Source of the DNA: Spirochaetota bacterium
GTDB taxonomy: Bacteria; Spirochaetota; Spirochaetia; Treponematales; UBA12059
Assembly: GCA_026398615.1 (NCBI GenBank)
Contig: JAPLSN010000012.1
Span: 1 to 64,000 of the forward strand
Reading direction: 5' to 3'
DNA: 64,000 bases
Positions 29,596 to 51,832 of this stretch are shown here, one piece after another. The notes under the pieces were generated by a model. That model ran no database searches. It was not told the origin of the DNA and saw only the letters and a program-made list of their open reading frames with translations. How positions within the stretch are numbered: position 1 is the stretch's first letter; each line of letters begins with the position of its first letter. The position numbers and the translations under genes were made by a program.

Positions 29596-29629
29596 AAAAA
29601 AGCCTTAAAGGACGAACGTCCCTCAAGGC
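29596..29629 (-). terminator. Rho-independent terminator after rpsU
   Basis: On the minus strand GCCTTGAGGGACG-TT-CGTCCTTTAAGGC forms a stem with a small internal loop, followed by six T (29596-29601). It stops transcription coming from rpsU just before the DUF192 gene. A second hairpin with flanking A/T runs (AAAAAGGCTCCATGGCCTTTT, 29692-29712) lies closer to the rpsU stop. Confidence 0.8.
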
Positions 29630-29744
29630 CGAGAATTCCTCTGCAATTCCTCGCGGTTTTCCGCTCAACTGCATTCTCAAAGACAGTGTTGAAAAAGGCT
29701 CCATGGCCTTTTCCGGCACTCTATTGGGCGCTATGCCGATTGGA

Positions 29745-40786: not shown

Positions 40787-40862
40787 GGAAGCGGCCGGAA
40801 ACTTCCCTTGACAGGATCCGGAAATGGTTGTGAACTGGGTTTCTCCGAAGGGGAGGATCGCC

Positions 40863-41966
40863 ATGTTCGCCCAAAAGGCCGTCCCGGGGCGATTCCATCT
40901 TGCCGCTGGAACCCGGGGGCGGCTGCTCATCGCATTTTTTTTCGCTTCCGCGCTCCCGGTCGTGACGATAGCCGTCCACCGGAACGCTTCGGGCGCTCCT
41001 CCGCCATCCCCGTTCTCCTCCAACGCAGCCGCCACGGCGACGGCGGCCGCCTTGGGGCTCGCCATGCTGGCCGCGTACCTTGCCCTCCTGTCCGCGAAGG
41101 GAAAACGGAGTTTCATGCCTGCGGCGTTTTCCGTCGCCGCGCTCGAAATCGTTCTCACGACAGGTCTCGGTCTCGTCCACCAGGACTACTCGGTACACTG
41201 GTTCCAGCTGGTGTGCGCCTTCATGTACATCCTGAACACCCGCCTCGACCTGATCGTTCCGGAGCGGTCATACCGGGGCGCGGCGCGAACCCTGTTCTCG
41301 GCGAGCCTCCTCCTCTTCCTCGCCATGTGCGTGTGGATCATGATCGCCGGGTTTTCCATCGTGAGCCGCATCGAACCGAGGCTCAACGAAAGCATCTGGT
41401 ACAACAGCTACAACGCGATCTTCATCCCGGTCCAGGCTGTCGCCATACTGCGGCTCAGGACCGAAGGATACCGTACGGTCAGGCTCGGGGTGACGGGATT
41501 TTCGGTCGATGGCCATGATTTTTCCGGGTACCTTGGAGCGGTCAACGCGGGGCTCGCGCGGGAATTCCTCGGGAACGCCGGGGCGGAACTCAACTGCGCC
41601 GCCCTCGTGTCGTCCGTAAACCGGGGAATCCGGGACAACGGGGATTCGAGGCCCGATCGGCTCGATGCAGCGACCGACGATCTCCGCGATCTCCAGGAAA
41701 CCGGCAATCCGGGCGATGATCCGAATGATTCCGCAACGCTTCCCGACGCGGCCTGCGCGGGCTGTCTCGTCGAGCCGCTGAAAGCCACCGGGTGCAGGAC
41801 CTATCGCAAGGTCTACAAGCGGGTCAACGACATACGGAAACTCTTCGAAGCCCTCGAGATCGGCACTGTCCTGAACCCGGACAACAAGATGAAGATCGTG
41901 GAACGGGGATGGAAGCTGCGGCTTTTCGACGACGTTCGCGTTGTCGACGACCGTTTTGGACGCTGA
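40863..41966 (+). CDS. Integral membrane protein of unknown function
   Basis: 367 residues. Five to six hydrophobic segments in the first 210 residues, including RLLIAFFFASALPVVTIAV, AAALGLAMLAAYLALL and ASLLLFLAMCVWIMIAGF. A soluble C-terminal half contains DAACAGCLVEPLKATGCRTY, with a pair of Cys-containing turns that could bind metal. GGGGAGG precedes the ATG at 40863 by 5-6 nt, which decides the start. It lies 76 nt after the PH-like gene. I do not recognise a family. Confidence 0.65.
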   Translation: MFAQKAVPGRFHLAAGTRGRLLIAFFFASALPVVTIAVHRNASGAPPPSPFSSNAAATATAAALGLAMLAAYLALLSAKGKRSFMPAAFSVAALEIVLTTGLGLVHQDYSVHWFQLVCAFMYILNTRLDLIVPERSYRGAARTLFSASLLLFLAMCVWIMIAGFSIVSRIEPRLNESIWYNSYNAIFIPVQAVAILRLRTEGYRTVRLGVTGFSVDGHDFSGYLGAVNAGLAREFLGNAGAELNCAALVSSVNRGIRDNGDSRPDRLDAATDDLRDLQETGNPGDDPNDSATLPDAACAGCLVEPLKATGCRTYRKVYKRVNDIRKLFEALEIGTVLNPDNKMKIVERGWKLRLFDDVRVVDDRFGR

Positions 41967-42055: not shown

Positions 42056-42083
42056 TTTTCGAAACGACCGCGAACGATATGAT
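42056..42083 (+). promoter_or_regulatory. Promoter of candidate RNA
   Basis: -35 TTTTCG (42056-42061), 16-nt spacer, -10 TATGAT (42078-42083). Expected RNA start near 42090. The -35 is weak and the -10 good. Confidence 0.45.
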
Positions 42084-42089
42084 TGCCGG

Positions 42090-42280
42090 AAAGCAGGCAA
42101 AACCCCCTGGGCTTTTTACCTGTCCGTCGGGCAATTACCCGAACCCCGTGGTATATCCGCATAACTGCGGACATCAGGGTTGCCCGACATGGCAACGGAC
42201 ATTCGTTCAATAATTTATGAATACCATATGAAAAATGCCGTTGGCCGTCCTGGTACCCCCCAAGGACGGCCCATTTTTTT
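42090..42280 (+). ncRNA. Candidate structured RNA with mutually exclusive helices
   Basis: About 190 nt from the predicted start to the terminator. Helix A: GTCGGGCAA (42126-42134) with TTGCCCGAC (42180-42188), 9 perfect pairs, enclosing hairpin TCCGCA-TAAC-TGCGGA (42156-42171). Helix B: GTTGCC (42179-42184) with GGCAAC (42191-42196), which uses the 3' side of helix A. Helix C: CAACGG (42193-42198) with CCGTTG (42238-42243), which uses part of helix B and touches the terminator stem. Competing helices before a terminator are what an attenuator or riboswitch shows, but a stand-alone small RNA is equally possible because the MFS gene has its own promoter. I match it to no known RNA family. Confidence 0.5.
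42243..42280 (+). terminator. Rho-independent terminator upstream of MFS gene
   Basis: GGCCGTCCT (42243-42251) pairs perfectly with AGGACGGCC (42263-42271), loop of 11 nt, then CA and seven T (42274-42280). It ends the candidate RNA, not the gene at 40863-41966, which stops 276 nt earlier. Confidence 0.88.
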
Positions 42281-42295: not shown

Positions 42296-42324
42296 TTGAG
42301 TCGGGACCGGCTTCCGTGTAGTAT
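42296..42324 (+). promoter_or_regulatory. Promoter of MFS gene, probably leaderless
   Basis: -35 TTGAGT (42296-42301), 17-nt spacer, -10 TAGTAT (42319-42324), then 7 nt to the ATG at 42332. No Shine-Dalgarno, so the mRNA should begin at or next to the start codon. Confidence 0.6.
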
Positions 42325-42331
42325 CTCCGCC

Positions 42332-43573
42332 ATGACGACACAACCAGTCGCCCGCGGCCTGCCCCGTACCATCTACGCGCTCTTCTTCGTCAGGTTCATC
42401 ATCTCGGCGGGCAGCTTCGTCAATCCCTTCCTCGCCATGATGCTCACCATCAAGCTCGGCTGGGACGAAGCCAGGGCCGGCGGTTTCATGTCGGTCGTGG
42501 CGATCGTCTCGGCGCTGGGGCTCGTCGTCGGCGGGCGGCTCGGAGACCTTCTCGGGCGCAGGGTCACGATGACACGGCTTCTCGCCCTGACCGCGGCCGC
42601 GTACGCCGTCTGCGCGGGTGCCGGTTTCAGGCCCTTCGTCCCCTTCATCATCGCCTTCGCGCTCGGATGCATGAACGGCGTGTGGCCCGTCCTCAACGCT
42701 GCCGTCGCGGACATGGCGCCGCCCGAACGCCGGAAGGAGGCCTTTTCGCTCATCTACTGGGGCAACAACGTCGGATTCTCCGTCGGGTCGGTGACCGCCG
42801 GGTTCCTCTTCAAGAGAGCGCCCCTCCTCATGTTCGCCGGGAACGCCCTCGCGGTCGCGATGGCTGCCGCCACGGTCTTAGCCTTCGTCCCGGAGAGCAG
42901 GCCCGCCACGGAACCGGGCTGCGGGGGGAAGGACCTTGCCGCCGATGATGACGTGCTCGAGGGAACCCTGCGCGTCCTCCTCCGCACGCCGGCGCTCATC
43001 TGGTTCGCGGTCACCGCCGTCCTCACGGCCTTCGTGTACAACCAGCAGAATTTCGCCCTGCCCGTGCTGCTCGGGAAGCTCTTCGGCGACGACGAGGGAC
43101 CCCGCAACTACGGGTTCCTCATGATGACCAACGGCCTCACCGTCGTGGCTTTCACGGCGGCGGTCACGCTGGTCTCGCGGAAGTTGCCTTCGCTCGCCAG
43201 TTGCGGGCTCGGTTCGGTTTTCTACGCGGTGGGATTCGGGGCCTACGCCTTCGCCACGGGATTGCCCTCGGTGCTCGTCTTCACGTTCATCTGGACCCTC
43301 GGCGAGATACTCGGCGCGACGAACTCCAACGCCTTCATCGCCGAGCGGGCGCCGCCGAGCCACCGGAGCCGGATCAACTCGATCATCTCGTTCTGCTATG
43401 TGGCGGGCAACGCGCTTTCGCCCCTGGCCGCGGGTTTTCTCGTCAGGCTGGCCGGGCCGCGCGCGGTATGGCTGCCCGTCGGCGGCATCGCCGCGCTGAC
43501 CGCGGCGGCCATCTTCGTTCTCCTGTGGTTCGACCAGCGGCGGACGTTCGGGGACCGCGGCAATCGGGCGTGA
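42332..43573 (+). CDS. Major facilitator superfamily transporter
   Basis: 413 residues with 12 predicted helices and the MFS loop 2-3 signature GGRLGDLLGRRVTMTR. NGVWPVLNAAVADMAPPERR and FLFKRAPLLMFAGNALAVAM fit drug- or metabolite-exporter subfamilies. A central loop (TEPGCGGKDLAADDDVLEGT) joins the two halves. Substrate unknown. The start is fixed by the promoter 7 nt upstream and by the protein beginning. Confidence 0.88.
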   Translation: MTTQPVARGLPRTIYALFFVRFIISAGSFVNPFLAMMLTIKLGWDEARAGGFMSVVAIVSALGLVVGGRLGDLLGRRVTMTRLLALTAAAYAVCAGAGFRPFVPFIIAFALGCMNGVWPVLNAAVADMAPPERRKEAFSLIYWGNNVGFSVGSVTAGFLFKRAPLLMFAGNALAVAMAAATVLAFVPESRPATEPGCGGKDLAADDDVLEGTLRVLLRTPALIWFAVTAVLTAFVYNQQNFALPVLLGKLFGDDEGPRNYGFLMMTNGLTVVAFTAAVTLVSRKLPSLASCGLGSVFYAVGFGAYAFATGLPSVLVFTFIWTLGEILGATNSNAFIAERAPPSHRSRINSIISFCYVAGNALSPLAAGFLVRLAGPRAVWLPVGGIAALTAAAIFVLLWFDQRRTFGDRGNRA

Positions 43574-51103: not shown

Positions 51104-51832
51104 ATGCCGACCGTCATGAAGAACGCGGAAACCACGATAGCCAAGCTCGTTGAAATCGCGATCAGGCACTACGGCATGATCGAGGACGGGGACCGGATCC
51201 TGATCGGGGCGTCGGGCGGCAAGGATTCCACAGCCCTCGTCTACGATCTGGCCCTCAAGCGGCGCTGGTGGCCGGCGAAATACGGGCTGCTCGCCCTCCA
51301 CGTGGAAACCGACTCCGGCGAGCGGCACGACATGGCGCCGCTGCGCGGGCTGTTCGGGTCATGGGGGGCGGAATACCGTTCGATCGAAGTGCCCGTCATC
51401 GGCCGCCTCAAGCCCGGCGAATCCATGAACTGCTGGTGGTGCTCCACCCAGCGCCGCACCGAGCTCATCCGCTACGCCCTGGCCAAGGGCTTCAACAAGA
51501 TCTGCCTGGGGCACCACCTCGACGACATCGTCGAAACCCTCCTCATGAACATGCTCCACAAGGGGCAGATATCGACGATGCCGCCGGTCGTCCGCTACGC
51601 GAAGTATCCACTCTCGGTCATCCGCCCGCTCGCACTCTGCGAGGAACGGCAGATCATCGCATTCGCGCGCGAGAAGGGCTTCGCGTCGGTTTCGTGCACC
51701 TGCGGCTTCGACGGTGCGTCGCGGAGGAAGGAAGTCCGGCGGAAGGTGGAAGAACTCACGGGCGGGTCGTCGGCGCTCAAGCGCAAGCTCTTCGCTTCCA
51801 TGTCGGATATCAGGGACGAATACCTGGCCTAG
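51104..51832 (+). CDS. TtcA-like tRNA 2-thiocytidine/thiouridine biosynthesis protein
   Basis: 242 residues. PP-loop ATP pyrophosphatase motif ILIGASGGKDSTAL; the Fe-S/Cys pair MNCWWCSTQRR; KICLGHHLDDIVETLLMNML; and a third Cys region VSCTCGFDGASRR. These are the TtcA arrangement: ATP adenylates a tRNA base and sulfur is delivered via a [4Fe-4S] cluster. The exact tRNA position modified is not certain. Two possible starts, 51104 and 51116 (MKNAETT), lie close together; no clear Shine-Dalgarno is present. Confidence 0.88.
   Translation: MPTVMKNAETTIAKLVEIAIRHYGMIEDGDRILIGASGGKDSTALVYDLALKRRWWPAKYGLLALHVETDSGERHDMAPLRGLFGSWGAEYRSIEVPVIGRLKPGESMNCWWCSTQRRTELIRYALAKGFNKICLGHHLDDIVETLLMNMLHKGQISTMPPVVRYAKYPLSVIRPLALCEERQIIAFAREKGFASVSCTCGFDGASRRKEVRRKVEELTGGSSALKRKLFASMSDIRDEYLA

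Follow-up and report, generated by a model that had tools for sequence, protein, structure and literature searches.

The HRC-28-1 motif, an RNA of several stems of which the last is an intrinsic terminator, is known from 33 examples, mostly in Polynucleobacter, and was attributed by its authors, on the grounds of gene orientation, to the upstream gene's 3' UTR (PMC8632094); many intergenic regions compared in the same work have a terminator without evidence of further complex structure (PMC8632094). Here, we describe a noncoding stretch with multiple possible folds and a strong terminator at its end, located between a gene at 40824-41966 and an MFS transporter gene in a 64-kb window (the whole stretch of DNA analysed, contig C38; the genome, of 3.38 Mb, is the single representative of its genus in our comparison set). 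Like HRC-28-1, the stretch carries several stems ending in an intrinsic terminator—a likeness of description, the sequences having been compared via the Rfam scan alone—but it is represented by one example compared to 33, and its downstream gene lies on the same strand. At about 190 nt, a noncoding RNA from this locus would be similar in length to 6S RNA (RF00013), although its predicted ends form no rod with a central bubble and it has no Rfam match. The order of multi-helix junction, terminator and transporter gene is shared with terminating riboswitches; in contrast to these, there is no terminator/antiterminator exclusivity here, the gene has an apparently independent promoter, and conservation is absent. 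Of the features listed below, sequence and computation establish the terminator and helices as well as the independent −10 box of the MFS gene:

40824..41966, + strand: upstream gene of unknown family, without a Pfam match; the interval may be its 3' UTR
42078..42083, + strand: weak −10-like hexamer TATGAT; best −35 match is 3/6, at 42056 or 42057
42093..42123, + strand: 5' hairpin GCAGG/CCTGT, −9.0 kcal/mol; takes up part of the P1 5' arm
42121..42201, + strand: four-way junction (P1-P4), when folded alone; no homologues
42126-42134/42180-42188, + strand: 9-bp perfect inverted repeat GTCGGGCAA/TTGCCCGAC; excludes P2 and P4 and wins the full-length fold
42156..42171, + strand: 6-bp tetraloop hairpin TCCGCA-TAAC-TGCGGA, −8.4 kcal/mol
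42179-42184/42191-42196, + strand: competing helix GTTGCC/GGCAAC; shares bases with the 9-bp repeat
42194-42198/42238-42242, + strand: competing helix AACGG/CCGTT
42194-42203/42234-42242, + strand: anti-P1 helix AACGG(a)CATT / AATGCCGTT; captures the P1 3' arm
42243..42280, + strand: intrinsic terminator, stem GGCCGTCC/GGACGGCC, then CA and seven T (CATTTTTTT), −20.4 kcal/mol
42296..42331, + strand: putative MFS gene promoter TTGAGT-17-TAGTAT, after the terminator; its −10 box is 7 nt ahead of the ATG, with no SD
42332..43573, + strand: MFS transporter gene, the downstream neighbour

The terminator and the flanking genes

The strong intrinsic terminator reported by the first-pass annotation is confirmed at 42243-42280 by sequence and computation. 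A scan of the 64 kb for stems of 7 or more uninterrupted Watson-Crick pairs plus a T run picks out this site alone, and in all complete folds computed, from three start points, the terminator forms with a probability of 0.91-1.00 whichever upstream helix forms, with no helix competing appreciably with it in these folds. The interval thus has at its 3' end the intrinsic terminator that is looked for in an sRNA. Elsewhere in the window, the hairpin GCCTTGAGGGAC-GTTC-GTCCTTTAAGGC followed by TTTTTT (29599-29636, − strand) is strong and probably another intrinsic terminator, which the strict Watson-Crick scan missed because its stem has G-T pairs.

Beyond the terminator, the stretch 42319-42334 holds TAGTAT 7 nt before the ATG of the MFS gene, for which a leaderless promoter of its own had been claimed, and the claim looks sound: in L027, L028 and L029 (MFS proteins 51-52% identical), TAGAAT likewise lies 7 nt ahead of the start codon. 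The equal −10 spacing in the four MFS loci suggests a conserved leaderless promoter, and the MFS gene looks independently promoted. Other relatives, e.g., L024, have an SD-like sequence before the MFS start instead of a −10 box. Most homologues of the MFS protein, including all of the closest, belong to spirochaete assemblies; for the upstream gene, homology is limited to weak partial matches in other genera.

Within the interval, the overlapping frames have no convincing protein family match, in line with the earlier statement that it holds no protein gene. A decayed protein gene was rejected, the single poor match (E 0.016) being to a eukaryotic family. A repeat or mobile element was likewise rejected: the interval is single copy, has no plasmid match, and has just two phage matches, both short and weak. 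An exact 17-mer present in two viral contigs has flanks with little similarity and was taken as chance.

Alternative folds and their strength

Both the 9-bp closing helix and the perfect 6-bp tetraloop hairpin that it was said to surround were verified in the sequence. Folded alone, 42119-42206 prefers the four-way junction (−36.2 kcal/mol), in which P1 is TGTCCG/CGGACA, within the 7-bp repeat TGTCCGT/ACGGACA, P2 is TCGGG/CCCGA, P3 carries the tetraloop hairpin, and P4 is TTGCC/GGCAA. Once the RNA is extended, the junction gives way to the 9-bp helix and the helix 42194-42203/42234-42242; if forced in the full-length RNA, the junction costs 4.0 kcal/mol (−66.8 compared to −70.8). The 5' hairpin forms with a probability of 0.91-0.97 in those complete folds that span it; because five consecutive T lie within it (42113-42117), it may be a weak terminator for the upstream gene.

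These alternatives had been read as switching helices. The competing helices exist and share bases with the 9-bp repeat, but the count of mutually exclusive helices, on which the switch idea is based, does not differ significantly from that in shuffles (P 0.059 and 0.078), and the alternatives leave terminator formation unchanged. The anti-P1 helix reaches only as far as 42242, one base short of the terminator stem, which it adjoins but does not enter. No SD or start codon is sequestered in the folds, and no SD precedes the MFS ATG. With termination ungated and neither an SD nor a start codon available for masking, the rearrangement has no evident output. Of the marks of a riboswitch or attenuator, we found neither a helix that would exclude the terminator or an SD nor a match to an aptamer family known to Rfam.

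The fold energy of 42090-42280 is better than that of shuffles, with z about −4.0 (−3.6 to −4.0 for stretches that include the terminator), and is thus compatible with a structured RNA under selection. The terminator contributes part of this value, since 42090-42240, which lacks it, has z −2.4. The core at 42122-42204, best-chosen and selected after the fact, reaches −3.7, and the four-way-junction interval −3.45 to −3.74 on the + strand; beyond the terminator, the signal is moderate, at z of roughly −2.4 to −3.7 according to the ends chosen. The reverse strand folds equally well or better across nearly all stretches tested, and among 1,280 85-nt windows of the 64 kb, z −3.5 or beyond occurs in 0.5%, intragenic ones among them. 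For the 9-bp repeat and for the 6-bp hairpin, the shuffle probability is about 4-6% each, and 0.4% jointly, in a test chosen after the fact; both are present in 1.4% of equal-sized windows of the 64 kb. The two strongest background values, −5.9 and −5.5, belong to windows 1601-1685 and 51501-51585 on the − strand, which oppose long + strand reading frames and probably reflect codon composition, not RNA.

Search for relatives

The description of the RNA as new holds insofar as Rfam gave no match at gathering or loose thresholds, the single weak one being to a miRNA model below the cut-off. The covariance search in related genomes that had been proposed as a check found no homologue in the family or order: a single-sequence covariance model run on 394 genomes of the order, with low power on diverged RNAs, recovered only the query itself (E 5e-25, next E 0.06), as it did, with the same low power, in the family genomes under laxer filters. 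The matches in G380, G237 and G003 (E 0.06-0.45) are weak and look like chance. The same model gave no match on 30 loci around homologues of the MFS or upstream gene, and the readable upstream regions of MFS homologues contain no such element, several of these loci having been read on the opposite strand, so that their true upstream regions are covered by the model search alone.

A blastn search against the 22 other genomes of the family returned nothing credible. Terminator-like matches in relatives lie mostly within coding sequence; one, in L021 (G018:C57:22314-22350, positions of the relative), is a terminator (GGCCGCCCGG...CCGGACGGCCCATTTTTT) closely like that at 42243-42280, and it sits after the apparent end of a different, sigma-70-type gene. 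As to known noncoding RNAs, the Rfam model of 6S RNA has no match above the gathering score in the genome itself and is above the cut-off in 0 of 23 family genomes, and ARAGORN detects no tRNA or tmRNA, which the cloverleaf-like fold might have indicated.

Competing explanations of the interval

We lean toward assigning the interval to gene 40824-41966, as the noncoding tail (3' UTR) of its transcription unit, which would end at 42243-42280, with the option that it is a lineage-specific sRNA, either released or separately started. Transcription, which we infer, would read through from the upstream gene to the terminator; the 5' part would fold by ordinary base pairing, its main fold being the tetraloop hairpin enclosed by the 9-bp helix; the terminator hairpin would set and protect the RNA 3' end; and the MFS gene would be transcribed separately from its own leaderless promoter. 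The terminator and the upstream gene share a strand, the Watson-Crick scan shows no other strong terminator in the gap up to the MFS gene, terminator formation is indifferent to the upstream helices, the MFS −10 box is independent, the candidate sRNA promoter is weak, and no such element is present in the readable upstream regions of MFS homologues. Against this reading, about 310 nt is long for a 3' UTR, TATGAT stands at a fitting position, the fold energy is better than in shuffles, and a weak terminator-like hairpin (42090-42117) could end the upstream transcript earlier. A stand-alone lineage-specific sRNA of about 190 nt, starting near 42090 from TATGAT, ending at the terminator and presumed to act in trans, is a doubtful though tenable alternative. 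The −10-like box at 42078, the strong terminator and the z value of 42090-42280 speak for it. Of the promoter-like site claimed earlier, the hexamer is indeed present, but its −35 is only 3/6 and the standard promoter scan does not report it; in a looser count, TATGAT-type sites number 2 in the gap compared to 0.49 in shuffles, with 13 on the + strand of the window. Also against such an sRNA, searches across the family and the order yielded no homologue, and no match to the Hfq family occurs in the genome, though many sRNAs act without Hfq.

Chance folding of ordinary intergenic sequence with a terminator, the upstream helices having no role, we consider unlikely. The near-chance helix conflicts, the missing conservation, the background windows with equal z and the reverse strand all fit it, whereas the joint shuffle probability of repeat and hairpin, albeit a post hoc choice, does not; moreover, it overlaps with the 3' UTR reading, where the helices may likewise have no role. 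Less likely again is a riboswitch-like leader, in which the four-way junction would be the aptamer, the 9-bp and anti-P1 helices the alternative state, and the MFS gene would be controlled via the terminator. The preference of 42119-42206 for the junction, its replacement in the full-length fold and the riboswitch-like order of aptamer, terminator and gene would fit; however, the terminator is present in both states, the predicted MFS promoter follows it, the MFS gene has no SD, and neither homologues nor conserved nucleotides nor an Rfam riboswitch were found. More improbable still is a genus-restricted bistable RNA in which the junction and the rearranged full-length fold would be two functional states, for example, sensing a substrate of the neighbouring MFS transporter; we keep the switch reading at low probability because it is based on the folding of one sequence. 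Of the earlier suggestion of a small RNA or a regulatory leader, a noncoding transcript that stops at the terminator is plausible, whereas a leader for the MFS gene is unlikely. As a whole, the first-pass annotation is partly confirmed: repeat, hairpin, competing helices and terminator stand, but the promoter is weak and the helix-conflict count is not significant.

Since no relative has the element and there is no sign of an RNA switch, the interval is for now an ordinary intergenic gap, at most an orphan sRNA. The main lesson of this case is that base pairing seen in a single sequence is not enough to establish an RNA switch: the competing helices are near chance in number and leave the terminator untouched. 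Should the sRNA or the structured 3' UTR prove real, spirochaetes would gain a further lineage-specific noncoding RNA.
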